DNA of 32,302 nucleotides from Phycisphaera mikurensis (GTDB lineage: Bacteria; Planctomycetota; Phycisphaerae; UBA1845): contig SBAX01000204.1 of NCBI GenBank assembly GCA_005240095.1, positions 1 through 32,302 of the forward strand. The letters run 5' to 3'. This document shows positions 1 through 18,056 of the stretch, piece by piece. A program made the translations under genes and the position numbers. Positions within the stretch are counted from its first letter, which is position 1. Each line of letters begins with the position of its first letter. Below the pieces are notes generated by a model. It was not told the origin of the DNA and did not search any database. It worked only from the letters and a program-made list of their open reading frames with translations.

Positions 1-9
1 ATTGCCAGC

Positions 10-1614
10 CTAGCCGGTTGGTTGTCGGGAAGCCGTCCGCTTGCACAAACCGCTGCGGGTTCGCCACTTAGCAGAGGTGCACCGTATCACCGACCGCTGG
101 GCGCCACGGACGATGGCCTTCTGCACGCGATACGCGGCGAAGACGGTGCCGGCCTCGATATGCAGCGCCTGCGGGGCGACGGCGGTTTCGAGCTGACCTA
201 CGCCATCCCCAGCCGATCGAGCGTGCTCAGCAGTAAATGAGCCGCCCAGATCTTCATCGCGTCGGCATCCGATGGAAGCGTTATTCGCTCGCGCTGCAGA
301 ACCCACGTCATCGTGCGTACCAATTCCCGCGGGCGATCCATCAGAAGCCGGTTCCACATGAGCCACTGCTCGGTCGTCACCGGCACGCCGGGCGGCGATA
401 GAACGCCCCCCGCTCCATCCTCCAGCAGGCACCCCATCAATGTGACCACCGGGTTCGTGTCTGGACGCAATACGTGCTGGTACATGAGCCTCAAAGCGTC
501 TGCGGCCTGTCGCCTGATCCTGTTTGCGAATTCGCCCATATACGTCCTCCTGCGATAAAGGTTTGAGTAACTCGTACGCGGTCTGAACGGAAAGCCCGCT
601 GCCGGTGACGATGTCCGACTCGGTCAGTGCCCGGCCGTCATGGTCGATCACGATGACCTGGTTGTCGAAGGTCGTACCGAATTTCGCGTACACGCTCCCG
701 TCGATGCCGATGTTCGCCCGAACACGGAAGCGCTGTTCGATCTGGGCCCACCACGCCCGAAACGCCGGCCGATCCAGGGCCATGCCGCGACCGACGATGG
801 CCACCAGACGACCGCCGGGCTTTAGGCGCAGCAACGCCTGCTCAACGTGCCTTGCTCCGAAATGTGTGCTGTGTCCCTTGACGCGACCGCCAGTGGCGGA
901 AAACGGCGCGTTCATCACGACCACGTCGTAGAACTTGTCCGCCGGAAGAAGGTTGTCGAGCCGTTCGGCATCAAACGCGGTCGACTCGAATCCCTGCAGC
1001 GACAACAGACTTCTCCGGCGTTCGTCAATTTCGTTGGTGTCCACATCGGCGCCGGCCAGCCGCGCCAGGACTGCGATGTTGCCGGTGCCCGCACTGGGTT
1101 CGAGCACGATCATTCCGGGCCGCAGCGCCGCGGCCGCCCCAACGAGCAACGCTTGGGCCGGCGGGGTGCTGAATTGCTGGAAGTCAATCTGGTCCTGGCT
1201 CCGCCGCGTTTGCGTCGGAAGTCGTGCCTGTTCGGCGAGAAGCTTGTCCATCGCGTTCCGAACGTCACCCAGGTCCAGTCCGACTCGCTCGAGGTAAATG
1301 TTGAATCCGGCTTCCGCGGCATCGTACGCGTCACGTGCGTGCGCGACCGAGCTTCCGAAGATGTCGCGAGCTAAGCGCGATAGTGCAGGATTGTCGAACG
1401 CAGTGCCTGCTTCGGCCTCCAGCAACGCAGCAAACCGGAGCGCAAACTGGCACTCGGGGCGGTCATGTACGGGAACCGTGCCAGCGGCGGTGGGATCGGC
1501 GGGCGAATCGAAATCAAACAGCATTTGAACAGCTTGACCCGCACCAGGGCGGTCCGCGTTCTCGTCGCTCGTTTGGCGATCGACAAGAGTCGCTTTCCTG
1601 AGTTCACGGGTCAT
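10..1614 (-). CDS. SAM-dependent DNA methyltransferase (N6-adenine type fold); C-terminal part uncertain
   Basis: 534-aa ORF with VLEPSAGTGNIAVLARLAGADVDTNEID (motif I) and DVVVMNAPFSATGG (NPPF-like motif IV variant). After about residue 355 the composition looks out of frame where a second ORF overlaps. Confidence 0.8.
   Translation of the reverse strand: MTRELRKATLVDRQTSDENADRPGAGQAVQMLFDFDSPADPTAAGTVPVHDRPECQFALRFAALLEAEAGTAFDNPALSRLARDIFGSSVAHARDAYDAAEAGFNIYLERVGLDLGDVRNAMDKLLAEQARLPTQTRRSQDQIDFQQFSTPPAQALLVGAAAALRPGMIVLEPSAGTGNIAVLARLAGADVDTNEIDERRRSLLSLQGFESTAFDAERLDNLLPADKFYDVVVMNAPFSATGGRVKGHSTHFGARHVEQALLRLKPGGRLVAIVGRGMALDRPAFRAWWAQIEQRFRVRANIGIDGSVYAKFGTTFDNQVIVIDHDGRALTESDIVTGSGLSVQTAYELLKPLSQEDVYGRIRKQDQATGRRRFEAHVPARIASRHEPGGHIDGVPAGGWSGGRSIAARRAGDDRAVAHVEPASDGSPAGIGTHDDVGSAARANNASIGCRRDEDLGGSFTAEHARSAGDGVGQLETAVAPQALHIEAGTVFAAYRVQKAIVRGAQRSVIRCTSAKWRTRSGLCKRTASRQPTG
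198..539 (-). CDS. Hypothetical 113-aa protein nested in another frame of the methyltransferase ORF
   Basis: Starts 7 nt after a perfect AGGAGG (mirror strand: caggaggacgtatATGGGCGAATTC) and has plausible protein composition (MGEFANRIRRQAADALRLMYQHVLRPDTNPVVTLMG...). Confidence 0.7.
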   Translation of the reverse strand: MGEFANRIRRQAADALRLMYQHVLRPDTNPVVTLMGCLLEDGAGGVLSPPGVPVTTEQWLMWNRLLMDRPRELVRTMTWVLQRERITLPSDADAMKIWAAHLLLSTLDRLGMA

Positions 1615-1974
1615 GATCCGTCCACGTAATGCATCGAGAAGTGTTATGCCTGGCGGACGGAAGCATGTTGCATGGGGAATGACGCGGGCGATGGTTACGG
1701 TGACTGGATGGCAAGTGACGCGCGTGTAGCACGGTTATCGTTCCCGCATGGTCGCATTTGGAGGAAGCCGGTCTTCGTTCGAAGAAATCGGCCTTACGAT
1801 GATCTCGGCGCGTGTGAAGCTGGTGACCGCTTCCTGGCAGACGCTGTTGACTTTGGTTGGGAGTCCAGTTATGTTAAGCTCCGACAGGGGCGATTCCTGG
1901 GTGCGCATTGGTGCCGTGCGGGGGTTTGGACCCTTCGCCTGGCGGACGGATCCCCAATCGTTGGAGCCGGAGGT

Positions 1975-3444
1975 CTACGGCGTCCGCGCAACGCAGCAAC
2001 GTTCCGCGAGGGCCGCAATTACGGCCGACACCGCCGGAGCGATAGGCTGAGGGGCTACGGTTTTTTCGCGGGCGAGGGCACTTTGACGGCACCGGTCCTC
2101 AACCGTCAGGCAACACGTGGTCCAAGGTGCGGACGAGGTGCGTGGACGATGGCGGTGGAGGATTCCTGGTCCGCCTGATAGACTCCCCGGCACGGTACCG
2201 GCAACGACGTTGCCGTGCGGCCTCCGCCGATCGGTTGCAAGGGTCGGTGGAGGCCGAACCGCTCTTGCGGCGGCCCCTCTTCGCCCCACGTCATCTGCGA
2301 AGTCCAAAACGCGGAGTTTTTGCCGGGCAGCGTCCTCCTGGCGCTGCGTGATGTAGTTCCATCGCTGATTCCGAACGAGGTACACGAACAGGCCCGCGGG
2401 GTTGCTGGTCCCGACGGCACAGGCGTGCTCGGCGGCGCCAAAGAAACGCAGCCGGTCACATTCGGTTCGCGAAATCAACTGCCGTTCAACGGCCTCGGCG
2501 TAAAGCAGGCTGAGCCTTTGCGTCTCCCGAAGGTCGGAAGGAAGGAGACGCCGCAGGCTGGGTCGCGATTCTGTTTTCGTTTGCTTGCAAATACCAACAG
2601 GTCTGCGTTGAGCGGGTTTCTGGTTCTTAGATCGATCTCTCGAAGAGAGTTCCTGATCTTGATATAGGGGTGGCGTTTTGGTTGTGGAAAACTCCCTGGG
2701 GGGTGGCGATCCGCACGAGTGACCAGCTCGACGAGGAGACCACGTGAGGTTGACCAGCGTCGGCATGCCCCAGCGATTCAACCGATTCTGACTCGTCGCC
2801 CGAGGAACGAGCCAGCCATCCTCGATGAGCTTCTTTCGCGCCGATTTGATAGTTCGCACGTCGACCTCGAAGATCTCGGAGATCCACGAGGGCTTGCATG
2901 TTCCGCCTGAGACGCAGCAACCGCGCCGGTAGTACAGGCACCTGAATAGGTGTCCAAGGCACGTTGCAATAGTCGAACGGCGTTTGGTCCTGGCGAGGTA
3001 TCGAAGCAGCCGGCGGGGAACAGGTATCTTGCGAGAATTATTCGTGACGCCGGCCAGGCGGTCGTTCAGCCCCTCTGGATCATGCACACGCAGTTCCAAC
3101 GCGGACACGGGCAGGTAGACCTCCGTTTCGGACCAGCGCAAAAGGCCGGTGCGCTCCAGCCGCCGGATGGACCCGCGGATATGCTCGCCGCCGACACCAG
3201 CGATAAGCCGGTGCAGTTCATCGGCGTGGTATCTCGGCTCCTGGCCATCCTGGAGGCCGTATCGCCTCGCTACAAGCTCAAAACAGGCCAGCCATACCCG
3301 GAGGTCTCGCAGTTCGATGTTTCCGCGTCTGAAGGCCCACCAGGCGCCCAGAAGCGATTCTACAGGGACAAAGCAGAACCCCCCGACCGGTTTGCGGGCA
3401 ATCTGTCGGATGGGGAAGTCATTGCGCGAAGTTGCAAGGTTCAT
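1975..3444 (-). CDS. Replication-initiator-like / winged-helix DNA-binding protein
   Basis: 489-aa ORF. N-terminal region has HTH-like segments (RGSIRRLERTGLLRWSETEVYLPV; PSWISEIFEVDVRTIKSARKKLIEDGWLV). Divergent from parA, as in plasmid backbones. The last ~100 aa look low quality. Confidence 0.6.
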   Translation of the reverse strand: MNLATSRNDFPIRQIARKPVGGFCFVPVESLLGAWWAFRRGNIELRDLRVWLACFELVARRYGLQDGQEPRYHADELHRLIAGVGGEHIRGSIRRLERTGLLRWSETEVYLPVSALELRVHDPEGLNDRLAGVTNNSRKIPVPRRLLRYLARTKRRSTIATCLGHLFRCLYYRRGCCVSGGTCKPSWISEIFEVDVRTIKSARKKLIEDGWLVPRATSQNRLNRWGMPTLVNLTWSPRRAGHSCGSPPPREFSTTKTPPLYQDQELSSRDRSKNQKPAQRRPVGICKQTKTESRPSLRRLLPSDLRETQRLSLLYAEAVERQLISRTECDRLRFFGAAEHACAVGTSNPAGLFVYLVRNQRWNYITQRQEDAARQKLRVLDFADDVGRRGAAARAVRPPPTLATDRRRPHGNVVAGTVPGSLSGGPGILHRHRPRTSSAPWTTCCLTVEDRCRQSALAREKTVAPQPIAPAVSAVIAALAERCCVARTP

Positions 3445-4082
3445 TCTCCGGTACCATGGGTGGCGGGCAATTCGAGGACGCCCGCGTTGTCCCGGGGAGA
3501 AGAACGCGTGAACGGCAGACGAGTGCCGGGCGGCACCGAGAGGTTGACAAGGGCAACAGAGTGCGCTACGAAAGAACCTGGTGACGGTCTTTCGTGTTCC
3601 TTGCAGTTTGTACTCCAGGTGACGACTGTACGCGGATGGGAGAGGCGGCCGTTCCGGCGGTCGCCCTTACCCGCGTGATTGCCTCATTCTCGTCCCCCTA
3701 AATGTTCCATTTCGATAGCCCTTACGATGTCGGAGCATGGTCTGACGTCGCAAGGTCCGCTCCTGACGGTAGATCAGACCGACGCGTCACGGCAAGATGA
3801 ATTCTGATTTTCCCGACGGCCCGCATGCCGGAAGGCGGGAATGCCAAATGGGGCGCAACGGATTCGGCCCCTCGTGTTCGAGGGACCGTCTGGGGAAGCG
3901 ACCCGTAACCAAGGCTTGCCATCTTTATGCCGATTGCGCTATGTTGGTCGCTGGGAGTCATGTCCGCCCTCGCACTTCCGGCCGGCGGGCGAGCACGCTT
4001 GCCGGCATGCGGAATGGCCGAGTATCGACAAGCGGCCAACGGGCAGGCGCTATTCTTAAGTATCACTTCGGCTTCGACAGAC

Positions 4083-4976
4083 ATGGATGGGCAATTACCA
4101 CTGGGAATCACGATTGCCGTCGGCAATGAAAAGGGAGGCGTGGGTAAGACCACGAATACGGTCCATGTCGCTGCTCTGGGTCTTTGCGGATATCGGTGCC
4201 TGATCATCGATCTGGATCCGGCGGCCGGGGCAACCAAACACCTGGGTGTACCCGAGAACAGTTTCGCGGGCACGCTGGAGCTGCTGACCACCGACGAAAC
4301 GATCAGGACCCTGGCCATCGAGGACAACATGCCACGGGGCGTGCATTTGATTCCCTCGCGCCCGCAGCTTTGCGAGCTGGAAGCGATGCTGTCCAAGTTC
4401 ATCGACCGAACCCGCATCCTGGACCGGGCGCTGGCCAGTGCCCGGCAGCTCTATGATTTCGTTTTCCTGGACACCCCACCGTCAGCCGCAGCGCTGACTA
4501 CGATCGCCGCCTACGCCTCATCGGAATGGTTCCTGCTCTCGGCTTTCCCGCATCCACTCTCGTTGGCCGGGCTTACGGAGGCATTCAAGGACATCGCCGA
4601 CGTCCGGGCGCACCGCAACCCCGAGCTCGAGGTCCTCGGCATCGTGTTCACCAACGTGGATGGACGAGCGACGAAGCTCCGCGCGGAACTGGACGCCCTG
4701 GTCGACGAGGTCATGCCCGGACGGAAGTTCCGCACGTCCATTTCGCAGGCAGTCATTATTCCAGCTCTTTCGGGCAAGGGGAAGACCCTCTTTCAGGTGC
4801 CCAAGTGTCAGCGTTTGCCGGTTGCCCACCAGTACCGGCGACTTGCGGCCGAAGTGGAACATCGCGTCCGGAACCGCGAGGCGTTTCTGGCCGGAACGCT
4901 CGGCCCGTTGAAGGACGAACGACCTCAACCAACGATCTGGATCGCTGATCAGCTTTCCATGTTGCCGGGGAGGTAG
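4083..4976 (+). CDS. parA: ParA-family partition ATPase
   Basis: Deviant Walker A GNEKGGVGKTTNTVHVAALGL, CLIIDLDPAAGATKHLG, YDFVFLDTPPSAAALT. ATG at 4083 (MDGQLPLGITIAVG) is preferred over the upstream 3927 start. Confidence 0.92.
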   Translation: MDGQLPLGITIAVGNEKGGVGKTTNTVHVAALGLCGYRCLIIDLDPAAGATKHLGVPENSFAGTLELLTTDETIRTLAIEDNMPRGVHLIPSRPQLCELEAMLSKFIDRTRILDRALASARQLYDFVFLDTPPSAAALTTIAAYASSEWFLLSAFPHPLSLAGLTEAFKDIADVRAHRNPELEVLGIVFTNVDGRATKLRAELDALVDEVMPGRKFRTSISQAVIIPALSGKGKTLFQVPKCQRLPVAHQYRRLAAEVEHRVRNREAFLAGTLGPLKDERPQPTIWIADQLSMLPGR

Positions 4977-4983
4977 GTAACTC

Positions 4984-5505
4984 TTGGCGAAAGCACTCCA
5001 ACAACGCCCGCCGTCAAGCTCCGTGGCCCGCCTGCTCGACCGGACGGCAGTCTCCCGGGCACTTGGATCACCTGCGCCAATGTCGGCTGAGCATGGCAGC
5101 GCACATTGTCGCAACGAGCAATCGACGCCGAGCGGGTCCGATGGGAGCGGATTGATCAAGCGGGAGTTCGTCCTCAGCGCGGAAACCGACGAATCCCTGT
5201 CCAGGCTTGTGCAGGTCCTTCGCGGAGCAACCCGCAGCCGACTCACCTACAGCCACGTGGCCCGCGCCATCCTCATCGGGATCGAACACTGCATGACGAC
5301 GATCGCACGCGAGGCCTCGGCACTTGGTCCGATGAAGCTCCCGAGTAACGCCAAGGGCCGGGATAGGGACCGAGAGGCTTTCGAGCGGCGCTTAGCCGGC
5401 GTGCTCCTGTTCGGTATTCGATCGGCGCCATCCCTTGACGTTCCTTCACGCACGGCTGAGGGCTCTCGTATCGGTCAGGATTGCCCAACGGCGTCCCTAA
5501 GCTGA
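4984..5505 (+). CDS. Small putative partition partner / RHH-like DNA-binding protein
   Basis: Begins 7 bp after parA ends. Central segment IKREFVLSAETDESLSRLVQVLRGATRSRLTYSHVARAILIGIEHC resembles a ribbon-helix-helix pattern. Confidence 0.55.
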   Translation: MAKALQQRPPSSSVARLLDRTAVSRALGSPAPMSAEHGSAHCRNEQSTPSGSDGSGLIKREFVLSAETDESLSRLVQVLRGATRSRLTYSHVARAILIGIEHCMTTIAREASALGPMKLPSNAKGRDRDREAFERRLAGVLLFGIRSAPSLDVPSRTAEGSRIGQDCPTASLS

Positions 5506-5743
5506 GCGTCCGACGAAGCTCGGCGAAAGTGTGTAACCCTTGGTGAGAAGGAAGGACGAGCGCGATCGTAACGGTGAGACCTCCTGCCCGGCTCTGGGTC
5601 GCTTTTGGCCGGACTGACATTTCGGCGGGAACGACGCTTTGAGCGCGTGAACTTTCGACCGAGCCGGGCTTCGTCTTCCGTGCGATAAAGAGATGCCCTC
5701 GTCCTTACCGACGACCTTAGCACAGGCCGTAACGCAAGTAAAA

Positions 5744-5798
5744 CACTATCCCAGCCGTGGGGAGGACGGGCGGCTTGTGATAGTGACACATCGTGTCA
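5744..5798. promoter_or_regulatory. Stem-loop plus adjoining dyad TGACAC-N3-GTGTCA
   Basis: CACTATC-cc-AGCCG...CGGCT-tgt-GATAGTG (5744-5785) overlaps TGACACatcGTGTCA (5784-5798). Confidence 0.6.
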
Positions 5799-5851
5799 TT
5801 TTTTCATGAGAAAAACGTGATTCTGTTCGTGGAATGCGCTATGCTCGCGTC

Positions 5852-5870
5852 CGCGAAACGTCGTTTCGCG
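5852..5870. promoter_or_regulatory. Dyad CGCGAAAC-N3-GTTTCGCG, candidate operator or parS-like site
   Basis: Exact 8-bp half-sites: cgcgaaacgtcgtttcgcg. Confidence 0.5.
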
Positions 5871-6039
5871 GTCGTCAGCGACGCAAACGCGAATCGCTGG
5901 ACGTTCATCATCACGGGCTTCGGTACTCGGTAAATCCAGGCTCACCACCTGGGCTAAGAGGGCGGCCTTATCACCCGCCATTGCCGTTGGCCCGTAGCGC
6001 CGGATCGCCGCGAGAGTGGCTCGTCCGGTGCGAGGGAGG

Positions 6040-6925
6040 CTCTAGAGAGTAATCTCCCGACTTGTCGGGAAGTAATCCTCTGGTTCTATCCCATCGTGGT
6101 GTCATCTCGTGACACGGTCTTTGACAAAGGGCGACCGGGAAAGACCCTTGACACGCCACGTCCGCCTTCGGCGGACTGGTTGCGAAGCAACCATCGAGCA
6201 GAGCTCGATGCGGTGCGTCAAGGGCCGTGGCAGTTGAAGCGGGTGCAAATCCCTCCGCGGGGTTCGGGGCAAAGTCCGCCGTGGGCGGACCATCGGGTGC
6301 AAATCTCGTGAGCCTCGTTCAACGCTGGCCGGCGTCGGGAGCTCGTTTGCCTTGAGGCAGACGACCGGAGCGATGACAAGCTTCGGGGTTCCGCCGAAAA
6401 AGCGGACTGCGAGAAGCGTAACGACGAAAGGGGCGTCAAGCCCTTGCCGGTAAGTGCAACTCAAGACGGTGCCGAACCGCGCTAGAAAGACCTTCGCCGA
6501 ACGGTAAGCCGAGCTTCTGTTTTCGTAGGCTGAAATCCCGCCACAGGCGGGGAAAGTGTGGCCGGTCGGAAGGCTGGTACATGTGGCGATTGTTCCGCCG
6601 AAAACGGGCGGACTGGTCAAGCGACGTGATGGGTTGCACGACGACTGCTGCTAACCGGGGAAGGACTATGGCTTCCGGGGTGATAGCCGGTGCCTGAGCG
6701 TGTCACTCAGGTGCTTCAACCGCCGTAGTCTGGGAGCGGGGGCCAAGTACGAGGTAGCGGAAGCTACGCGGAGCCGCTGCAAGGCAGTGGCGGGGCCGTT
6801 TGCGCATCAACGGGTGGTGCCGGGTGCGATGCAACGAGGAAAGGCCTGACGGGCATTTGATCCTGTGATGATGACGTGCCGGCCGGGTTCTTCGCCTTCG
6901 GCGGAGGCCCGGCCGGCTTCCTTGG
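6040..6925 (+). ncRNA. Candidate large (~870 nt) structured non-coding RNA
   Basis: Dense series of perfect hairpins: 6055-6070, 6099-6115, 6116-6146, 6145-6224 enclosing 6160-6176/6178-6192/6193-6209, 6274-6290, 6344-6363, 6537-6551, 6594-6612, 6693-6711, 6754-6767 (GGAA tetraloop), 6773-6791, 6878-6917. No convincing ORF on either strand. Boundaries and strand inferred. Confidence 0.7.
6878..6917 (+). terminator. Very stable hairpin, possible 3' end of the structured RNA
   Basis: GCCGGCCGGG...CCCGGCCGGC, 10 perfect bp around an inner TTCGCC/GGCGGA stem; only a weak pyrimidine tract follows (ttccttggtt). Confidence 0.5.
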
Positions 6926-6952
6926 TTGGAACCGATTCAGCGGGCCAAAGAG

Positions 6953-6979
6953 GTCTCGCCTGACGGCGAGGCGTCTTTT
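6953..6979 (+). terminator. Rho-independent-like terminator
   Basis: CTCGCC-TGAC-GGCGAG followed by gcgtcttttg. Confidence 0.5.
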
Positions 6980-6993
6980 GTCAGCGGAAGGAC

Positions 6994-7025
6994 GACGGAC
7001 ACCCGGCGTGTACCTGGTGTCCGTC
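6994..7025. repeat. Perfect 10-bp stem inverted repeat
   Basis: GACGGACACC-cggcgtgtacct-GGTGTCCGTC. Confidence 0.7.
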
Positions 7026-7172
7026 AGCGGTTTTGGTTCGCAACAACCATGAATTGGTGTGCTGCTATTCGAAAGAAAACGGCACGCATTCAGCGTTGCG
7101 GATGGAGGTGTTGCATGAAGGTCAAGGTTTCGTGTCGCGGAGGTTCATCGGTGCACAAAGGAGGTGATCCCA

Positions 7173-7382
7173 ATGGGTTGGTGGAAGACGGTTGGTGGGG
7201 CCGTCATCGGCGACGGTCCGGCGAACGTGCTGGATGAATACGCTGAGCGCGGCGCGGTGTGGGCCGAGCCGGCGGTCATCCCGACGGAGGTGCGAAAGCA
7301 AATCGAGGCGCTCTACTTGGAAGACCTGGGTCGTCTTCCGACGGATGAGGAGCTTGAGGCGCTGCTTTCGTTCTGCCGGTGA
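7173..7382 (+). CDS. Small conserved-looking protein (69 aa, MGWWKTVGGAVIGDGPANVLDEY...)
   Basis: AAAGGAGGTGATCC (7157-7170) directly precedes ATG 7173. Acidic C-terminus LYLEDLGRLPTDEELEALLSFCR. Confidence 0.8.
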   Translation: MGWWKTVGGAVIGDGPANVLDEYAERGAVWAEPAVIPTEVRKQIEALYLEDLGRLPTDEELEALLSFCR

Positions 7383-7469
7383 GGCGAGTGCTAGAGGTTC
7401 GTGGTGCACGAGCCAGGGTTACGGCTTTCGGGGTTGTGCCGCAAAACAATCCCACCTGTGGGAGCGGCA

Positions 7470-8126
7470 ATGTATCGGTGTGAGGCGGTAACGGTCGAAG
7501 GCTTCGTGCAACAGCTTGCGGTGACGTACGTGCACCACGGACACCTCTTCTACGTGACCGGGCAGATCCCGGAAGGGAAGGATCCGCGGGCCGTGGACGC
7601 GAAACTCATCGAGCGATACGACCTCAGCGTATCGAGGTGGGCACGTACCCGAGCGAAGGCGATGGGCCGAGCAAGCGTGCAGTACATCCGGCAGGGCCGA
7701 TTCTTCGTGCTGATTGCGACGAAGGGGAGGCACAAGTTCTACGAGCGGGAGTCGGGCATCCGGGACATCCGGCGTCACCCGATCCGGTACGGCGGGTATA
7801 GCATCTCATACCGGCGCGGCGCTGACCGGAAGCGGCACGTGTCCGTACGAATTGCTCCGGATGAGTACCTCCGCTTGAAGGCCCACCTTGTCGGGCTTGC
7901 GCGGCACCGCTCGGTGGAAAATTTATGGGCCGAGTTTTTGCGGCTTCGGTTCGAGCCGTACGCGCCGGTCCGGCGTCAGCTTCTGAACATTCTTCGAGCG
8001 GTAAACCGCCTGCGGAGGGAGGCCGGGTTTGAGCCGGTACCCGTGTCGGCGCTGCGTTTTCGCCGACGTGTAGTGAGGCCGTTCGATCGAGGCACCGCAC
8101 GAAACATGCTTGGGGTGACAGCATGA
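7470..8126 (+). CDS. Hypothetical basic protein, ~218 aa (MYRCEAVTVEGFVQQLAVTYVHHGHLFYVTG...)
   Basis: Open from ATG 7470 with upstream GGAG. Coding-like composition, Arg-rich; follows the 69-aa ORF on the same strand. Confidence 0.8.
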   Translation: MYRCEAVTVEGFVQQLAVTYVHHGHLFYVTGQIPEGKDPRAVDAKLIERYDLSVSRWARTRAKAMGRASVQYIRQGRFFVLIATKGRHKFYERESGIRDIRRHPIRYGGYSISYRRGADRKRHVSVRIAPDEYLRLKAHLVGLARHRSVENLWAEFLRLRFEPYAPVRRQLLNILRAVNRLRREAGFEPVPVSALRFRRRVVRPFDRGTARNMLGVTA

Positions 8127-8338
8127 TTAAGCCGGTGCGCAGCAGGCCAGACCAACAGCCGGTGGCCGGCAATTCACGGATGAGACCATCAGCCAGTTTG
8201 CTATCAACACCCCGGGTGCAGCCGGCCGGTTCCGCCGGACCGGGAAAGATTTGCGACCGGACGGAGGCATTGGCGCTCGTCCGTTGCCGGGGGGTTGGGT
8301 ACGGGACCTGGAGGTCAAGCATGGGGACGAGCGGAGGG

Positions 8339-9301
8339 TCAGCCGCGGTTTCGCCCGCCCAGGAATGCGTCCAGGCCGACACCCGATGCGTTCCTATACA
8401 CCGGCTCCATCGCCTCCAGGAATTGTTCCCTGCCCCGCCAGAATGGGAAGCTTCCCAATCGTCTGGGGAGCGCCGCCGACAGCGCGGGAGGGCGGACATC
8501 ACCGACCAGATCATCTAGCAATGGCGCGCCGGGATTGCCCTCCCAGAAGGCGCCAGCGTCCGTCGGCAGAGATTGTGGCGGAAGGGGTATCGTCCGAATA
8601 TTCTCTGAGCCGCTTCGCCGGGCTGCGTTCGTCGATGCCTCCGATGGCCTTCGCCGGGCGGCCTTGGCAGGCCGTGCCAGTTCTGACACTCCGTGGCTGC
8701 AGGCCCCCAGAAGTCCAACGAGCTCCTGCCGGGACATCCCCCGCAGCTTGAAAAGCAAAAACGGGTCGCGGTCGAATTCCTCGCCGAGCAGGTAATAAAC
8801 CGCCGCAATGTGTTTGCAGGGGTTTGACCAGTCCGGACAGGAACATTCAGTCATCAGGTCCTTGAGCTTGTTGGGGAAAAGTGACAGGCCGGTGTCCTTG
8901 AAGGCCTTCTCGATATCCTGGGGCATCTCTCCGGCAAGCAGCTTCGCGGCGAACAGGGCTTGGACGGAGAGCGTCTTGGCGAGCTTCTTCCACTCCGCGC
9001 CGGACAGGGTCTTGACTTCAATGACCACGCTGTAGGGCTTTGGACGGGATCCCTGAACCTTGGCGCTTACGCGTCCCTTGTTGACGCGGAGGTCGAGCAC
9101 TTGTCCGCGACGCGCATAGGAGCGACCGCGCCCCAGCCGCGCGCCGATCTCGAAGCTCTCCAGCACCTCGATCCAGCGTTGGGCCCACCAGCTCTCGCCG
9201 AACGAGCCGCGCTTGGACTGGGCCTTGATGCCGCCTTTGGCCTGGCGCGGCGCAGACCGCGGAAAGAAGTCACGGTAAAAGCCGAAACTTCGCCAAGACA
9301 T
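8339..9301 (-). CDS. SWIM zinc-finger domain protein
   Basis: CSCPDWSNPCKHIAAVYYLLGEEFDRDPFLLFKLRG matches the SWIM CxCx(n)CxH pattern. Adjacent to SNF2 helicase. Confidence 0.9.
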   Translation of the reverse strand: MSWRSFGFYRDFFPRSAPRQAKGGIKAQSKRGSFGESWWAQRWIEVLESFEIGARLGRGRSYARRGQVLDLRVNKGRVSAKVQGSRPKPYSVVIEVKTLSGAEWKKLAKTLSVQALFAAKLLAGEMPQDIEKAFKDTGLSLFPNKLKDLMTECSCPDWSNPCKHIAAVYYLLGEEFDRDPFLLFKLRGMSRQELVGLLGACSHGVSELARPAKAARRRPSEASTNAARRSGSENIRTIPLPPQSLPTDAGAFWEGNPGAPLLDDLVGDVRPPALSAALPRRLGSFPFWRGREQFLEAMEPVYRNASGVGLDAFLGGRNRG

Positions 9302-9313
9302 AGGAACTACCTT

Positions 9314-9661
9314 TCAAAAGGAAATCTCTCCGCCGACAGGTGGCTCGCTGACCTTCGCGTTTCGTCCAACCCCAATCAGAGCTGCATCCGGCGCCAAGGC
9401 ATCCAAATCGGGTGTGTCATCCGCTCGCTGCTGGACCGGCTTCCCTTCCCTTCGCCGCGCGATGCGCCTCTCATACATCTCACGAATCCAAACGTGAACC
9501 GGTGCCTTCCACGACTCGGCACTGTTGGGTATGTTTTTGATCAGGTTTCGCGGATTCAGGCCCAGCTCCTTTGCCATTCGCAGGGTCTCGACGTTCAGCC
9601 GGCATTTCCGCTTCGCTTTGATCCAGAGAGCCTCCCGCTTTGCTTTGCTTTTTTTGGCCAT
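9314..9661 (-). CDS. Hypothetical 115-aa protein between SNF2 and SWIM genes
   Basis: Lys/Arg-rich N-terminus (MAKKSKAKREALWIKAKRKCRLN), KELGLNPRNLIKNIPNSAESWKAPVHVWIREMYERR. ATG 1 bp beyond the SNF2 stop. Confidence 0.85.
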   Translation of the reverse strand: MAKKSKAKREALWIKAKRKCRLNVETLRMAKELGLNPRNLIKNIPNSAESWKAPVHVWIREMYERRIARRREGKPVQQRADDTPDLDALAPDAALIGVGRNAKVSEPPVGGEISF

Positions 9662-9662
9662 C

Positions 9663-12600
9663 TCACTCCGCCACGGCTCCTTTTCTGAGCCGGAAGAGTT
9701 CCCTCAGCTCGGTTGTCGAAAGCTCGGTCAGCCAACCTTCGCCCGTGCCCACGACCTTCTCGGCCACTTCTTTTTTCCGTTCGATCATCACATCGATCTT
9801 CTCTTCCAGCGTACCCACGCAGAGGAACTTGTGCACTTGGACGTTCCTGGTCTGGCCGATGCGGAAGGCACGATCGGTGGCTTGGTTCTCGACGGCCGGG
9901 TTCCACCAACGATCGAAGTGGAATACGTGGTTCGCGCGGGTCAGGTTCAAACCCGTTCCGCCGGCCTTGAGCGAGAGAATAAAGATGTTCGGGCCACCGC
10001 TTCCTGGCCCATGGCCGCTTCCGTTCTCGCCATCGCCCTGGAAGCGTTGAATCAACCGATCGCGTTGGTTTTTCGTCACCCCTCCGTGGAGGAACAACAC
10101 CTCGCGCCCGAAGGTCTCCTGCAGGTGTCTCCGGAGAATCTCGCCCATCTCGGAAAACTGTGAGAAAATAAGTGCTCGATCCCCGACGGAAATGAGTTCC
10201 TCCAGCATCTCGGTGAGGCGTGCCAGCTTTCCGGAACGACCGCCAATCGCCGAGTTGTCACCCAGGAACTGGGCCGGGTGGTTACACACCTGTTTGAGTT
10301 TTGAGAGCGTGGCCAAGATCATCCCTTTGCGCTGGATGCCCTTCGCCGACTGCAGTTCACCTTCCGCTTCCTTGACCACCGCAGCATAGAGCGAGGCCTG
10401 TTCCTTGGTCAGCGTGCAGAAAACCTTCATCTCCATCTTTTCAGGTAGGTCGGCGATGATGGACTTGTCCGTCTTAAGCCGCCGGAGAATGAATGGTCCG
10501 GTGATGCGCTTGAGACGGCGGGCGGCTTCCGGGTCACGGCTGGCCTGGATGGGAATGAAGAACGTGCGTTTGAACTCGGCTTGCGTTCCCAGCAGCCCGG
10601 GATTCAAGAACTCGAAGATGGACCAAAGATCGCCGACGTTGTTCTCGACCGGCGTCCCGGTCAGGGTAATCCTGTAATCACCGGGAAGCGCCCGAGCGGC
10701 CTTGGCCTGCTTGGTCTCGGGGTTCTTGATGTTCTGAGCTTCGTCAAGGACGACGCCCGCCCAGGGCACATCCTTGAGAACCTCAAGATCCCGGTGCAGC
10801 AGCGCATAGCTGGAAATGACAATCGCCTGTCGCTGCGCTTCCTTCTCGAAGGCGGCGCCTTTGGCGCGGGCAACGCCGTGGTGCACCATCACGGGCAGCT
10901 CCGGCGTGAAGCGGGCGGCCTCCTTTTGCCAGTTGCCCACGACGGACGTGGGGCAGATCAGCAGCACCGGGCGTTGACCGTTAGCGTGCCAGTCCCGTTG
11001 CACTAGCGCCAAAGTCTGGATGGTCTTGCCCAATCCCATGTCGTCCGCCAGGCACGCGCCCAGACGCCACCGCCGAAGGAAGCCGAGCCACGAATAGCCC
11101 CGAATCTGGTACGGACGCAGAACGCCGTTGAAGTCGTGCGGTGGAGGAAGCTCCTCGAACGCTTGGCGCCCGTGGAGTTGGGCAAGCAGTTGGTCCATCC
11201 AGCCGTCTGCGGTGACGCCATCGAAGGCCAATGGGCCTGAAGAGTCGCCGGCCCCCAAGGCCATCTCCACGATCTCGCGCACGGTAGCCTTGCCTGGGCC
11301 CTTTTTCTTCCAGAAGTCGAGGGCCGCCTGAATCTCTTCGGCGCTCATCTGCACCCACTGGCCGCGGACATGGACCAGGGGCGCCTTGAGCTTGGCCAGC
11401 GTCTGCAGCTCCTCGAAAGTGAGCTTCTCCTCCCCGAGGGCCACCTGCCAATCGAATTGCACCACTGTGCTAAGAGACAGATCGCTGGCACTCTGCATCT
11501 TCGGACTCTTGACGTTGGCCCGGGCGGTAAGACGGAGCTTGGTCCCCTTGCGCGTCCACCACGCCGGCAGCATGACGCTGAACCCAGCCTGCTCCAGCGC
11601 CGCCGCCTTCTCCGTCAGAAACTCATGCGCGCCGCTCACGTCGAGGGAGTAACCTGTGGGCACAGCGGTCTTCAGACTGGCTTCGATCCGCGGGCAGATT
11701 CCCGAGGCTTGGCCCAACGATAGCAGGAGGTACTCCTTGGCGTCAAATCCATTGCGTCGGAGTATCGTGGCCTTGGGGCCCCGCGCGTGCCATGCCTCCT
11801 CCGCCGCGACGAGCAAGCTGGGATCGTCGGCGGCCTGCAGCAGATAGCGAACGTTCCATGGATGTTTGCCGGGATACACTCCGGCGCCGCCCTCAACCTC
11901 CGGTTCCTCCAGCCGGAACGAGAGTCGAAAAGGTGAGGCTACCGAAACGGCGATCGGGCGCTGCCATTCACAAACCTGGTCCGCGAAGGTGGCCAGCTCG
12001 CCAGCGTCGCCCTCCAGGCAACCGTCTGCAGCCCGCAGGGCATACAGCCACTGATCGTGCAGAGTTTCGAACACCGCTGCTCTCGCGGTTTTTCGTTGGC
12101 CGCGCCGAGCATCCTTCTGCGGTGCCATCGCCGGCGCATGTTGCGGTGGGGCCGCACTCCGGACGAGATAGTCGACGACCCTCCCAAGAAAGTCGGACAG
12201 CGCGGCGAGGGCTGGGGTCTGTGGCGGAGACCCTCCGTTGACGGTCAGCGCCCGCGCGATCGCCGGCATCGCCTTGGCGAGTTTCGCAGGCGCGTCGGCA
12301 TCGTGACCGGCAAAGACCGGCTTCCAGCATGCGCGGTACGTTCCATGGTCAGCGACCACGTCCGGCAGGAATTGCTGCCTCGTGACCGTCGCACCGGCCA
12401 ACCGCATCGCCCACGACCAAAACCTCAGGTCGTTTCCGATGATGACACCCGGCGCCAGCGTCGGCTTCTCTACGCATGCGCAGAGAAGCTCCACCGCCTG
12501 TTGGAGCGTGAGGCCAACGGCCGTGACCGTCCACGGTGCAAGTTGTGGCTTGGAGGCGGACGTTGGCGGTGCAACAATGAGCGGGCACGACGCAAGGGGA

Positions 12601-12857
12601 AGGCCAGCGTGAGTGGGAACCCAAGCAGTGAGATCTCCGATCTGATGCTTCGAAGGCGAGGGAAAGACGCCCACCTCGGCCAGCACCGCTAAGAGCGGTG
12701 CGGCACCGGCATCGTAAGGTGAGCGTTCGCATGCCTGTGCCTTTGGCCCAGGCTTCGATCGTTTGGCAAGACTTCGGGCCTGCGCCTCGGTTGCACCAGC
12801 CTGCTCACCCCATAGTCGCAGGTCCCCGTCGATTACTCCCGCATGTAGTACGATCAT
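9663..12857 (-). CDS. SNF2-family DEAD/DEAH-box helicase / ATPase
   Basis: 1064 aa with DDMGLGKTIQTLALVQ, LLICPTSVVGNWQKEAARF, VVLDEAQNIKNPETKQ, LTGTPVENNVGDLWSIFEFL, LKAGGTGLNLTRANHVFHFDRWWNPAVENQATDRAFRIGQ. Confidence 0.97.
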   Translation of the reverse strand: MIVLHAGVIDGDLRLWGEQAGATEAQARSLAKRSKPGPKAQACERSPYDAGAAPLLAVLAEVGVFPSPSKHQIGDLTAWVPTHAGLPLASCPLIVAPPTSASKPQLAPWTVTAVGLTLQQAVELLCACVEKPTLAPGVIIGNDLRFWSWAMRLAGATVTRQQFLPDVVADHGTYRACWKPVFAGHDADAPAKLAKAMPAIARALTVNGGSPPQTPALAALSDFLGRVVDYLVRSAAPPQHAPAMAPQKDARRGQRKTARAAVFETLHDQWLYALRAADGCLEGDAGELATFADQVCEWQRPIAVSVASPFRLSFRLEEPEVEGGAGVYPGKHPWNVRYLLQAADDPSLLVAAEEAWHARGPKATILRRNGFDAKEYLLLSLGQASGICPRIEASLKTAVPTGYSLDVSGAHEFLTEKAAALEQAGFSVMLPAWWTRKGTKLRLTARANVKSPKMQSASDLSLSTVVQFDWQVALGEEKLTFEELQTLAKLKAPLVHVRGQWVQMSAEEIQAALDFWKKKGPGKATVREIVEMALGAGDSSGPLAFDGVTADGWMDQLLAQLHGRQAFEELPPPHDFNGVLRPYQIRGYSWLGFLRRWRLGACLADDMGLGKTIQTLALVQRDWHANGQRPVLLICPTSVVGNWQKEAARFTPELPVMVHHGVARAKGAAFEKEAQRQAIVISSYALLHRDLEVLKDVPWAGVVLDEAQNIKNPETKQAKAARALPGDYRITLTGTPVENNVGDLWSIFEFLNPGLLGTQAEFKRTFFIPIQASRDPEAARRLKRITGPFILRRLKTDKSIIADLPEKMEMKVFCTLTKEQASLYAAVVKEAEGELQSAKGIQRKGMILATLSKLKQVCNHPAQFLGDNSAIGGRSGKLARLTEMLEELISVGDRALIFSQFSEMGEILRRHLQETFGREVLFLHGGVTKNQRDRLIQRFQGDGENGSGHGPGSGGPNIFILSLKAGGTGLNLTRANHVFHFDRWWNPAVENQATDRAFRIGQTRNVQVHKFLCVGTLEEKIDVMIERKKEVAEKVVGTGEGWLTELSTTELRELFRLRKGAVAE

Positions 12858-12910
12858 ACTCAGACTCGCCGTACAGCCGTGCCCATCGCCGGACGGATGC
12901 TCTTGAATGC

Positions 12911-12983
12911 CGCTGACCGCGTACGGTGTTCACCGGGCAGTATACAACCACTGCCCGCTCCTTGCGCAGACCGCTGACCGCGT
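12911..12983. repeat. Hairpin bracketed by 12-bp direct repeats upstream of the SNF2 gene
   Basis: CGCTGACCGCGT at 12911-12922 and 12972-12983 flank CGGGCAGT-atacaacc-ACTGCCCG (12934-12957). Confidence 0.65.
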
Positions 12984-13180
12984 GGCGATGCGACGACGCA
13001 GCGCGCTGTGAAATCTTGCATGGGAGGTTCCTCTGGGCGTGATGGTTGGGGGCTCCAGAGCCTCGGGCTGGCGGGTCCCGCTGTTCGCCGGTCACCGACG
13101 CAAGCGAATGCCGGGGTCGTGTCGGTTCCCTCGGCGCGCGCAGCGCTCCGCAAAGGAGCGGTGTCTTATTATTATTAAAG

Positions 13181-14152
13181 TCAGAAGAGTTCATCGAGCG
13201 CCGCCTCTTTCTGCGCTTCGGAGGGCTGAACGTACCGCCAGATGTATCGCTCGGAGCTTTGGCCGGAAAGCTCCATCGCGTACTGCACGCCGTACTTCTC
13301 CGCAGCGCGGCGGAGGCAGGTGTGCCGCAGGAGGTGGGCGTGCAGGCGTATCTTCTGGTCATCGGGGAGGCGGATGTTGGCCTGGTCGGCAATGGCTTTG
13401 AGGGCCTCATCGACATTCTGGCGGGCGAGCCGGGCGCCGGACCGAGTGCAGAAAAGCGGCCTCGGCCTTCGGCCTCGCACCTCGTCAATGTAGCGGTCGA
13501 GGGCCTGTCGCGCCTGGCCGGCGACGAAGACCGCACGGGATACCTGCCGGCCCTTGCGTCGGACGTTGTGGAAGTGCTTGCCCCGGTACTGGTCGAGGTC
13601 CAGTCGAAGGAGCTCCGAGACGCGCAGACCGGTACGAAGGAGCACCAGGAAGATAGCGAGGTCGCGCGCGGGCTGCTGGCTACGACGGCGCCGGACGTGA
13701 ACAAGCTGCTCGGCGGCGGCCTTCAGGCGGGTGATGTCGATATCGCGCAGCCCCCTCCACTCCGGGGCATCCACACGGATGTCGAGGATCCGCTCGGTGG
13801 GGTTGCCGGCCAGGAATGGGCGGCGCCCATGGATCCAGCGGGCGCAGTGCCGGAGTGTTGCGAGCACCCGGTTGATCGTGGTCGGGTTGCGTTTCTCGCC
13901 TTGCAGTCGCTTCACGAAGTCCGCCGTGATCGACCTGGTCCACAGATCGGCCTGGTCGCTTTTTGTCGTTTCGGAGAAGAAGTTGAGAAAAAGGTTCAGG
14001 TCTCTCGTCTTTGCGAGGATCGTATTCTCAGAGTTCGCCCCGGCCTCCAGGGCCAAGTAGAGGTTGCACCAGGCCAGAAGGCTGTCGCGCTGTTCGGAGG
14101 GGACGAGCTGGACCGTCGCGGGATTTGCTGGGGCGATTGAGGAGGTGAGCAC
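13181..14152 (-). CDS. Tyrosine recombinase / phage-type integrase
   Basis: LRTGLRVSELLRLDL (Arg box I), HAHLLRHTCLRRAAEKYG (HxxR), SGQSSERYIWRYV (Tyr box). Likely GTG start. Confidence 0.93.
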   Translation of the reverse strand: MLTSSIAPANPATVQLVPSEQRDSLLAWCNLYLALEAGANSENTILAKTRDLNLFLNFFSETTKSDQADLWTRSITADFVKRLQGEKRNPTTINRVLATLRHCARWIHGRRPFLAGNPTERILDIRVDAPEWRGLRDIDITRLKAAAEQLVHVRRRRSQQPARDLAIFLVLLRTGLRVSELLRLDLDQYRGKHFHNVRRKGRQVSRAVFVAGQARQALDRYIDEVRGRRPRPLFCTRSGARLARQNVDEALKAIADQANIRLPDDQKIRLHAHLLRHTCLRRAAEKYGVQYAMELSGQSSERYIWRYVQPSEAQKEAALDELF

Positions 14153-14246
14153 GACCTAAGAATAGCACGAATTTCTTATGTCATGCAATAGTTTTCGTTC
14201 TCGGCGGGCGGTGCCAACGCGGTGTCAAGCGCTTGGCATGGATTGG

Positions 14247-14272
14247 TATGACATAAGGTATATTATGTCATA
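14247..14272. promoter_or_regulatory. Inverted repeat TATGACATAA-N6-TTATGTCATA, candidate operator or recombination site
   Basis: Exact 10-bp half-sites; a third half-site TTATGTCAT lies at 14176-14184, 24 bp upstream of the integrase start. Confidence 0.6.
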
Positions 14273-14615
14273 CAAAGGAAGGGGCACGATGTTACGGCGC
14301 GCGTCTCCTCGCGGGAAATGCAATTCGTCCGGTTCGCATTCCCCGCAGGTTGCCTCGTGTCGCGCCCGGGGATCGCCACTATCGGGCGAGACAGTGTCTC
14401 TGATGATGGATACTTTGGGAGCTTGGGGGCGGTGGCTCGCGCGTTCGGCGGGGTGGAGCTTGCCTTTCCAGGCGGAACGCGAACGTGCAGCCGAGGCTGG
14501 ATGGGCTGGATGGGCTGGCGCGCGGCGAGTAACGTTTCAAAAAGCGCCGCCGGCAAGTAGCATGGCGCTGAGGTACGCGAAAACGGGAACGTTCCTTACG
14601 GAGTGCGCGGCAACG

Positions 14616-15517
14616 ATGAAGGAACTACAAAACAAAGTCGCTATTGTTACCGGTGCCAGTCGGGGTGGCGGAAGGGGGATAGCGGTCGTCCTCGGTCAGG
14701 CTGGGGCGACAGTGTACGTCACTGGGCGAACCACTGGATTGCGTTCTACGGACGCACCAAACGAGGCCCGGCAGGGAACCGGTAGGGCGCACGGTCGCTG
14801 CGAGACGGTCGAAGACACCGCCGAACTGGTCACCGCCGCGGGCGGTGTCGGAATACCTGTCCGGTGCGATCACACCGTCGATACGGAAGTCAAGACCCTA
14901 TTTGACCGCATCCGTCACGAACAACGCCGAGTCGATATCCTGGTGAACAACGTCTGGGGTGGTTACGAGCTACCCCTCGATTTTGCCCCGTTCTGGGAGG
15001 CGCCGCTCGGCCAATGGGACCTGATGTTCACGGCGGGGGTTCGCGCCCAACTCGTGGCCACGCGGCTCGCAGTGCAGCTCATGCAGCAGCAATCCGGCGG
15101 GTTGGTTATTCACACGACGGCCAACATGCCGCTCAAGTATCAGGGCGGCCTGTTTTATTACTTTATTACCTCGCCAAGCACGCGGTATCTCGGATGACCG
15201 CGGCCATGGCCCAGGAGCTTCAGCCCCACGGCATCGTCGTCCTCGCCCTCGCGAACGGTTTCATGCGAACGGAGAAAGTGCTTGAGGCATTCAAGACCGA
15301 CCCGCATAACTGGCAGAAAGTGCCCGCGTTGAGCCAGACCCATTCGGTGGAGTATCCCGGTCGTGCAGTGGTAGCTTTGGCCTGCGACCCCAAGGTTTCC
15401 AGGCATTCGGGCAAGTTACTCGAAGTCGGTGACGCCGCCCGCGAGTATGGATTTACCGATATTGACGGCCGGTACGTTCCGCCATTCCGAGAGTTGCACC
15501 CTGAGTTATTCTGTTAA
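14616..15517 (+). pseudogene. Short-chain dehydrogenase/reductase (SDR), frameshifted at the active site
   Basis: MKELQNKVAIVTGASRGGGRGIAVVLGQAGATVYVTGRT ... DILVNNVWGG in frame 1 (ORF 14178-15197). The C-terminal half YYLAKHAVSRMTAAMAQELQPHGIVVLALANGFMRTEK is in another frame (ORF 15014-15517). Confidence 0.88.
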
Positions 15518-15541
15518 GCCCATGTGCGGGAGTTTGACAGC

Positions 15542-16153
15542 ATGCGGCATCGGATCGCTTCGGTCCTCGCAGTCGTCCTTCTTCTTCCGCCGCTTTCCGG
15601 CTGCCTGACCAGCCAGGTGATCGGGCATCATCCCGAATGGCGCAAGCTCGCCGGCCTCCCCGAAGATGAGGGGATGACGGCGGACCTCGTTCGCTTTAGA
15701 TCGCTCGACGGTCTGACGCTCACCGGGTGGTGGGTGTCGGGGAAGGGCGACCCGCAGGCGACGATCGTGCTCGTCCACGGCATGGCTGGCAACCGCTCCC
15801 ACATGCTCGGCCGCGCGAAGTTCTTGGTTGACGCCAGCCACAACGTCCTTGCCATCGACCTGCGCGCCCACGGGGACAGCGAGGGCAATTACATGACGCC
15901 CGGCTACAAAGAAGCTGACGACGTCCTCGCCGCCGTTCAGTTCCTCCGAGCCGCGCCGTTCATTGGGCGCGCTGTCCACTCTCCCTCCCGGGGAGACAGT
16001 GGGGAGGAGGGTGAATACGGTCAGAGGATCGTCCTGTTCGGATATTCCTACGGCGCCGTCGCCGTGCTCCATGCCGCGTCCCGATGCTCCCAGGTCGCCG
16101 CCGTCATCGCCGACGCTCCCTTCATATCCTACACCGACGTGATGCATCGCTAG
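15542..16153 (+). CDS. Alpha/beta-hydrolase lipoprotein, truncated at the palindrome axis
   Basis: Lipobox-type leader VVLLLPPLSGC, VLVHGMAGNRSHM, DLRAHGDSEG, FGYSYGAVAVL nucleophile elbow. Ends ADAPFISYTDVMHR* with TAG across the axis. Confidence 0.88.
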   Translation: MRHRIASVLAVVLLLPPLSGCLTSQVIGHHPEWRKLAGLPEDEGMTADLVRFRSLDGLTLTGWWVSGKGDPQATIVLVHGMAGNRSHMLGRAKFLVDASHNVLAIDLRAHGDSEGNYMTPGYKEADDVLAAVQFLRAAPFIGRAVHSPSRGDSGEEGEYGQRIVLFGYSYGAVAVLHAASRCSQVAAVIADAPFISYTDVMHR

Positions 16154-16761
16154 CGATGCATCACGTCGGTGTAGGATATGAAGGGAGCGTCGGCGATGAC
16201 GGCGGCGACCTGGGAGCATCGGGACGCGGCATGGAGCACGGCGACGGCGCCGTAGGAATATCCGAACAGGACGATCCTCTGACCGTATTCACCCTCCTCC
16301 CCACTGTCTCCCCGGGAGGGAGAGTGGACAGCGCGCCCAATGAACGGCGCGGCTCGGAGGAACTGAACGGCGGCGAGGACGTCGTCAGCTTCTTTGTAGC
16401 CGGGCGTCATGTAATTGCCCTCGCTGTCCCCGTGGGCGCGCAGGTCGATGGCAAGGACGTTGTGGCTGGCGTCAACCAAGAACTTCGCGCGGCCGAGCAT
16501 GTGGGAGCGGTTGCCAGCCATGCCGTGGACGAGCACGATCGTCGCCTGCGGGTCGCCCTTCCCCGACACCCACCACCCGGTGAGCGTCAGACCGTCGAGC
16601 GATCTAAAGCGAACGAGGTCCGCCGTCATCCCCTCATCTTCGGGGAGGCCGGCGAGCTTGCGCCATTCGGGATGATGCCCGATCACCTGGCTGGTCAGGC
16701 AGCCGGAAAGCGGCGGAAGAAGAAGGACGACTGCGAGGACCGAAGCGATCCGATGCCGCAT
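16150..16761 (-). CDS. Alpha/beta-hydrolase, truncated (mirror copy)
   Basis: Mirror of 15542-16153. The two copies meet tail-to-tail and share CTAG 16150-16153. Confidence 0.88.
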   Translation of the reverse strand: MRHRIASVLAVVLLLPPLSGCLTSQVIGHHPEWRKLAGLPEDEGMTADLVRFRSLDGLTLTGWWVSGKGDPQATIVLVHGMAGNRSHMLGRAKFLVDASHNVLAIDLRAHGDSEGNYMTPGYKEADDVLAAVQFLRAAPFIGRAVHSPSRGDSGEEGEYGQRIVLFGYSYGAVAVLHAASRCSQVAAVIADAPFISYTDVMHR

Positions 16762-16785
16762 GCTGTCAAACTCCCGCACATGGGC

Positions 16786-17687
16786 TTAACAGAATAACTC
16801 AGGGTGCAACTCTCGGAATGGCGGAACGTACCGGCCGTCAATATCGGTAAATCCATACTCGCGGGCGGCGTCACCGACTTCGAGTAACTTGCCCGAATGC
16901 CTGGAAACCTTGGGGTCGCAGGCCAAAGCTACCACTGCACGACCGGGATACTCCACCGAATGGGTCTGGCTCAACGCGGGCACTTTCTGCCAGTTATGCG
17001 GGTCGGTCTTGAATGCCTCAAGCACTTTCTCCGTTCGCATGAAACCGTTCGCGAGGGCGAGGACGACGATGCCGTGGGGCTGAAGCTCCTGGGCCATGGC
17101 CGCGGTCATCCGAGATACCGCGTGCTTGGCGAGGTAATAAAGTAATAAAACAGGCCGCCCTGATACTTGAGCGGCATGTTGGCCGTCGTGTGAATAACCA
17201 ACCCGCCGGATTGCTGCTGCATGAGCTGCACTGCGAGCCGCGTGGCCACGAGTTGGGCGCGAACCCCCGCCGTGAACATCAGGTCCCATTGGCCGAGCGG
17301 CGCCTCCCAGAACGGGGCAAAATCGAGGGGTAGCTCGTAACCACCCCAGACGTTGTTCACCAGGATATCGACTCGGCGTTGTTCGTGACGGATGCGGTCA
17401 AATAGGGTCTTGACTTCCGTATCGACGGTGTGATCGCACCGGACAGGTATTCCGACACCGCCCGCGGCGGTGACCAGTTCGGCGGTGTCTTCGACCGTCT
17501 CGCAGCGACCGTGCGCCCTACCGGTTCCCTGCCGGGCCTCGTTTGGTGCGTCCGTAGAACGCAATCCAGTGGTTCGCCCAGTGACGTACACTGTCGCCCC
17601 AGCCTGACCGAGGACGACCGCTATCCCCCTTCCGCCACCCCGACTGGCACCGGTAACAATAGCGACTTTGTTTTGTAGTTCCTTCAT
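16786..17687 (-). pseudogene. Frameshifted SDR (mirror copy)
   Basis: Mirror of 14616-15517 with the same frameshift. Confidence 0.88.
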
Positions 17688-18030
17688 CGTTGCCGCGCAC
17701 TCCGTAAGGAACGTTCCCGTTTTCGCGTACCTCAGCGCCATGCTACTTGCCGGCGGCGCTTTTTGAAACGTTACTCGCCGCGCGCCAGCCCATCCAGCCC
17801 ATCCAGCCTCGGCTGCACGTTCGCGTTCCGCCTGGAAAGGCAAGCTCCACCCCGCCGAACGCGCGAGCCACCGCCCCCAAGCTCCCAAAGTATCCATCAT
17901 CAGAGACACTGTCTCGCCCGATAGTGGCGATCCCCGGGCGCGACACGAGGCAACCTGCGGGGAATGCGAACCGGACGAATTGCATTTCCCGCGAGGAGAC
18001 GCGCGCCGTAACATCGTGCCCCTTCCTTTG

Positions 18031-18056
18031 TATGACATAATATACCTTATGTCATA
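18031..18056. promoter_or_regulatory. TATGACATAA-N6-TTATGTCATA inverted repeat (mirror copy)
   Basis: tatgacataatataccttatgtcata upstream of the integrase. Confidence 0.6.

Follow-up and report, generated by a model that had tools for sequence, protein, structure and literature searches.

The locus analyzed here raises the question of whether a large structured RNA, encoded by a planctomycete, belongs to a class of its own. The original prediction placed this RNA at positions 6040-6925 of the window (the whole 32,302-nt stretch of DNA that was analyzed, one contig of a 4.67-Mb genome that is about 90% complete), included group II introns among the candidates, and raised the possibility of a new class. 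The element is instead a new lineage of a known class, the circularly permuted (CP) group II ribozymes, in a planctomycete, because its D5-D6, domain order, splice motifs, and CP-specific pseudoknot match those of the published class. These ribozymes ('T-large' RNA) were first reported by Roth, Weinberg, Vanderschuren, Murdock, and Breaker in 2021, and five tested members self-process in vitro (PMC8637638). Anatomy, covariation, splice motifs, and gene linkage are observed at this locus, and the joint claim that 5936-6917 on the + strand is a CP group II ribozyme with self-splicing chemistry is very probably correct.

Positions 1-16151 of the contig recur exactly as their reverse complement in 16152-32302, which makes it a perfect inverted dimer; every feature is present twice, and the ribozyme has a mirror copy at 25386-26367 on the - strand. 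This layout probably reflects either an artefact of assembly or a replicon of the hairpin type.

The presence of a dense non-coding structured RNA was borne out by its predicted fold and by its helices, which are kept in homologues. The fold of 5930-6925 has a free energy of -479.9 kcal/mol, compared with -437.6 +/- 8.8 kcal/mol for 20 shuffles (z -4.8). Only short ORFs, none of a known family, occur in 5936-6917, so there is no intron-encoded protein (IEP) inside the RNA. An Rfam search, named as a check with the original prediction, returned no match at gathering level to any family in the window; with permissive settings, RF00029 (group II D5-D6) matched 5995-6094 at E 2.5e-5 and 37.2 bits, slightly under its gathering score of 40. 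Models of GOLLD, ROOL, OLE, HEARO, RNase P, tmRNA, and group I introns had no match in 5700-7200 up to E 10, and a tRNA/tmRNA search found none.

The element maps as follows.

~5936..6917, + strand: whole CP group II ribozyme, P1 to D4, assigned from domain order, covariation, and splice motifs.
5936..5952, + strand: P1 hairpin CCAGG[CTCACCA]CCTGG, read from the sequence, with counterpart hairpins in homologues.
5961..5979, + strand: P2 hairpin GGCGG[CCTTATCAC]CCGCC, in which loop bases 5969-5974 form a kissing contact with the loop of D2 (loop covariation).
5997..6031, + strand: D5, with GAGA tetraloop 6012-6015 and the catalytic triad position at 5998-6000 (RF00029 match, covariation).
6034..6094, + strand: D6 with bulged branch-point A6088 and the 3' splice site (3'SS) after 6094, following CCCAT (RF00029 match, covariation).
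6095..6128, + strand: linker of 34 nt, predicted to leave as an RNA circle, enclosed by the two splice motifs.
6129..6658, + strand: D1, beginning at the 5' splice site (5'SS) with GGGCGACCGGGA (homologue motif, covarying helices).
6508..6531, + strand: EBS hairpin of D1, with GTTTTC at 6519-6524 covarying with the six bases that end the linker.
6663..6731, + strand: D2, with loop GTGATA 6680-6685 that pairs with the P2 loop (covariation).
6740..6847, + strand: D3, including the GGAA-loop hairpin 6754-6767 (covariation).
6878..6917, + strand: hairpin GCCGGCCGGG...CCCGGCCGGC, read from the sequence and, following PMC8637638, named D4 from its position alone.
6944..6981, + strand: conserved hairpin 3' of D4, with 14 of 14 pairs covarying.
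7470..8126, + strand: AcpG-superfamily protein, 218 aa (co-occurrence with the RNA, hhalign to Thermus AcpG).

Several features of the original prediction fall into place on this map. Its GGAA-loop hairpin 6754-6767 is real, covaries, and belongs to D3, and its strong terminal hairpin is the one at the D4 position. Its 5' boundary at 6040 lies inside D6, and the RNA begins about 100 nt earlier with P1, P2, and D5. The excluded 5' part is the diagnostic one, and the statement that no diagnostic motif could be recognized was mistaken in view of the RF00029 match. The expectation of a giant, ornate RNA of ribozyme size was sound. The idea of a new giant RNA class draws on the lack of an Rfam family at gathering score, and we give it almost no credence, as all the hallmarks seen here (D5-D6, the motifs at the splice sites, the order of the domains, and the CP pseudoknot) fit the class described in 2021.

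The order of domains in the window is P1-P2-D5-D6, a 34-nt linker, and D1-D2-D3-D4 (D4 by position only), which is the CP order. The RF00029 match sits upstream of the remaining domains and not at the 3' end of the RNA, and the permuted order parts D5-D6 from D1-D4. A canonical group II intron, or the decayed pieces of two copies with D5-D6 of one beside D1-D4 of another, is a highly improbable source of this arrangement. The D5-D6 are like those of ordinary group II introns, and relatives do contain canonical introns, but D5-D6 here lies 5' of D1, and the canonical layout of D5-D6 at the 3' end with outer splice sites was not found. Moreover, the same order is repeated, with strong covariation, at dozens of loci spread over several phyla; both the P2-D2 pseudoknot and the splice-site motif GGGCG are CP-specific; and the window's own genome has no maturase-domain match and no strong RT match.

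Covariation in the CP ribozyme is strong. Examination of homologues, another check that had been named beforehand, revealed double changes at 18 of 24 D5/D6 pairs (23 sequences) and at 144 of 171 pairs of the well-kept helices of D1-D4 (29 sequences). Homologues with 49-67% column identity to the element retain 85-100% of the pairs of each predicted helix. The CP-specific kissing loop between P2 (TATCAC 5969-5974) and D2 (GTGATA 6680-6685) covaries in 20 homologues, with a mean complementary run of 5.25 compared with 4.03 +/- 0.22 in shuffled pairings, a value reached by 0 of 1000 shuffles. The IBS-EBS pairing covaries across 58 distinct pairs in the expected register only (4.36 versus 3.66 +/- 0.11, 0 of 2000 shuffles). 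The shuffles leave relatedness among the sequences in place, so the counts for P2-D2 and IBS-EBS are not probabilities; the register control of the IBS-EBS test is less exposed to this objection.

The splice sites are those of a CP RNA. A6088 is unpaired amid paired columns and is invariant across 23 sequences. The 3'SS motif NU is represented by AT at 6093-6094 and the 5'SS motif GGGCG lies at 6129-6133, with 34 nt between them; homologues carry GGGCG or a near variant at the start of D1, and their linkers too lie between the two splice motifs. The linker holds a stem-loop, GTGTCA-TGACAC, and its final six bases, GACAAA, constitute the IBS. A family covariance model built from these RNAs matches the published CP RNA on pPNAP05 (E 9e-7), in which the same splice motifs enclose a 32-nt linker, equal to the published length. 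Counterpoints to the CP reading are that the window and five other relatives have CGC, compensated by a C-G pair, as the triad at the base of D5, while 17 of 23 relatives have AGC; that only four of the six bases of the window's own IBS pair with its EBS; and that the family model has no match in the CP RNA of Thermus pTT8. A CGC triad is also present in active canonical group II introns, such as that of O. iheyensis.

Other sequence features in and around these domains were also noted. The original prediction included a long-range pair, GGTCTTT 6116-6122 with AAAGACC 6140-6146. It was dropped because it spans the 5' splice site (6128/6129), with half of it in the variable linker, and lies outside the conserved structure. 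In the P1 loop, CACCAC 5943-5948 is complementary to GTGGTG 6096-6101 at the start of the predicted circle; this complementarity is either chance or a window-specific contact. The first stem of D1 (6145-6224; 1501-1578 in L006) contains a palindromic insert of three hairpins. The same insert stands by itself at another site of the genome (C457) and in relatives, and it has the appearance of a REP-like repeat embedded in the ribozyme.

The proposed reaction follows by analogy with the five tested CP members (PMC8637638), and it is on this basis that we infer catalysis and circle formation. The transcript would fold to a group II core in which the P2-D2 kissing loop keeps the permuted domains in contact. 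In the first step, the 2' oxygen of A6088 would attack the phosphate between A6128 and G6129 at the 5'SS; in the second, the freed 3' end of A6128 would attack the 3'SS between 6094 and 6095. The expected products are a 34-nt RNA circle (6095-6128) and a branched RNA whose P1-D6 part is linked through a 2'-5' bond to D1-D4.

The RNA is present in 39 of 100 genomes, the window's own included, and the best match among relatives is in genome G013. With the full-length RNA as query, blastn gave no match in plasmids or phages; a D5-D6 query did match cyanobacterial plasmids. The pair of RNA and protein also occurs on plasmids of Leptolyngbya, Calothrix, Planctomycetes K2D, and Bacillus cereus. A GTDB scan for the linked protein, which used a narrower alignment than the most diverse one, returned mostly Planctomycetota. 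The other labels were Acidobacteria, Verrucomicrobia/Opitutaceae, Thermoleophilia, Hydrogenedentes, Omnitrophota, and Bdellovibrionales, and labels at the phylum level for single records may be blurred by MAG binning errors.

Additional copies were seen in several of these genomes. The window's own genome has a second full CP RNA with an AcpG-like gene (74% protein identity; G000:C400, L003/L005) and a partial third CP copy at a contig end (G000:C379, L004). Calothrix plasmid5 (L041) has two CP D5-D6 matches, at 1817-1957 and 3968-4099, about 2 kb apart. A twintron was found at L182 (G021:C3, ~371-2829; also L014/L088), where a canonical group II intron with an RT-maturase ORF lies inside D5 of a CP RNA; another CP locus in the twintron's genome has the same intron 3' end at the contig edge.

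The 218-aa protein encoded downstream is a near-constant companion of the RNA. A CP RNA lies upstream on the same strand at 59 of the 68 protein loci with enough DNA, and on that strand D6 and the protein are a median of 1.2 kb apart. In 40 of 45 places the RNA is ≤3 kb upstream of the gene, the exceptions being mostly near contig ends, and at the genome level the association has a Fisher p of 1.5e-13. The linkage is near-constant and not universal, a further counterpoint to the CP reading, as lone copies of the RNA and of the protein both occur. AcpG-like genes with no detectable CP RNA upstream were found at L104, L112, L137, and L145 and are either solo proteins or have RNAs too diverged for the model; L114 and L138 retain an EBS-like hairpin.

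The protein matched no family in Pfam, PHROGs, NCBIfam, or PADLOC, and a PDB sequence search gave nothing significant. BLAST of the linked protein against AcpG of Thermus (TTHC007) found no similarity, and on that result it had been read as a family unrelated to AcpG. This reading was overturned when a profile of 67 members was aligned with five Thermus AcpG sequences by hhalign (163 columns, probability 94.3%, E 9.7e-8); shuffled and reversed controls were negative. This match, together with the gene linkage, places the protein in the AcpG superfamily, in which it is far diverged from Thermus AcpG. To our knowledge, AcpG had no known relatives before.

The near-constant position of the gene also bears on what the RNA does. 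It could act mainly in cis, as a 5' leader governing the AcpG-like gene, and the ribozyme reaction would then serve as a switch or arise as a by-product; this explanation is compatible with the ribozyme. The protein is nearly always downstream on the same strand, and a conserved terminator-like hairpin stands between D4 and the gene: a scan for terminator-like structures found a stem with a T-rich tail at 6953-6972 that overlaps the hairpin 6944-6981. A mainly cis-regulatory role is nevertheless unlikely, given that RNAs with no AcpG-like gene exist and that published CP RNAs can be arranged divergently or convergently with acpG or be separated from it by several kilobases (PMC8637638).

For the protein that accompanies the CP ribozyme, we infer a role like that of the maturase of ordinary group II introns, in which it would bind the ribozyme and help it to fold. 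The chances for and against such a role appear evenly balanced. If the protein binds the ribozyme and stimulates back-splicing, then ribozyme and maturase were kept together after the loss of mobility. The window's own genome, about 90% complete, has no strong RVT_1 match (limit E 1e-12) and no GIIM match; therefore, retromobility of the window copy appears unlikely from sequence searches.

We know of no role for CP group II ribozymes. Several CP copies, including that of the window, lie near ParA, ParB, or replication genes and are often plasmid-borne, a setting that points to the replicon as the beneficiary. That the element serves the replicon that carries it, rather than its own mobility, is nonetheless a doubtful proposition. 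Farther downstream in the window, an apparent operon at 8339-12857 (- strand), convergent to the AcpG-like gene, encodes an SNF2 helicase (1064 aa), a 115-aa protein, and a SWIM zinc-finger protein, and is followed by a tyrosine recombinase gene at 13181-14152.

The AcpG family might be a catalytically dead remnant of a group II intron RT (palm from motif C onward, plus thumb) that moved from D4 to a separate downstream gene, a tentative proposal that we consider possible and somewhat less than probable. The AcpG-like profile aligned with 39 RTs over 96 columns, from motif C via motif E into the thumb (E 1.2-1.4e-4, probability 52-55%). In this register the first beta hairpin corresponds to motif C with YADD replaced, GYSI to the FLG motif, and the following helix to the thumb. 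The same register gave E 0.0045 with just 11 RTs, so the RT signal rises with profile depth. The best score among 20 unrelated control families was 21.3, compared with 34.1 for an RT cluster; Thermus AcpG alone had no match to RTs. The catalytic YADD is absent from AcpG-like proteins, where the aligned place reads YLRxxRxF, and the protein is therefore not classified as an RT. In the predicted structure (pLDDT 92), one helix and one strand precede a pair of helices and a beta hairpin; a short helix then leads to another beta unit and a final set of three helices. This succession in the model resembles an RT palm and thumb. The top Foldseek match was the retron Eco8 RT (E 2e-3 for the whole model, 0.5 for residues 64-186; TM 0.25), and most of the list was made up of retron RTs, HIV RTs, and viral polymerases. 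As there were no fold matches at E 0.001 and TM scores were low, an RT origin stays a lead.

If that origin is correct, the CP ribozyme and AcpG would be a domesticated, immobilized group II retroelement, split into ribozyme and maturase that are kept together across several phyla, and it would explain the consistent absence of IEPs from CP RNAs. The locus is of interest for its protein partner and for how widely the lineage extends, rather than for any new class of RNA. It brings a nearly constant pairing of RNA and protein, dozens of new covarying RNAs from a planctomycete branch, and a first hint of maturase descent for AcpG. The spread in Planctomycetota and other phyla, the longer linkers, and the near-constant downstream protein are new relative to the text of the 2021 paper. 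In the open-licence literature we found no later papers on CP group II ribozymes; earlier reports may exist.

Compared with known systems, the AcpG-like protein shares with RTs and group II maturases a profile alignment from motif C to the thumb, and differs from them in its lost YADD, its total length of about 220 aa, and the low-scoring fold matches. It shares with Thermus AcpG (TTHC007) the 163-column alignment and the same genetic partner, but BLAST detects no similarity, and its gene is downstream and co-directional whereas the Thermus gene is divergent. The RNA has the D5 and D6 core, branch A, and EBS/IBS logic of canonical group II introns (RF00029), from which it differs by its permuted domains, reversed internal splice sites, and lack of an IEP in D4. 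With published CP RNAs it has in common the order D5-D6-D1-D2-D3-D4, the reversed internal splice sites NU and GGGCG, a short linker, the bulged A of D6, the P2-D2 pseudoknot, the lack of an internal IEP, and an AcpG-superfamily gene nearby. It departs from them in its CGC triad, in the downstream, same-strand position of the protein, and in its planctomycete host, the hosts named in the text of the paper being Thermus, Firmicutes, and Proteobacteria (PMC8637638). The published linkers, and hence circles, range from 15 to 86 nt (PMC8637638), whereas those of some relatives of the element (L015, L020-L023, L026, and L134) are 99-142 nt long, with 220 nt in L023, and several of these long linkers open with a common ACATCA...GGCGATTCGCTCGCAC stretch.
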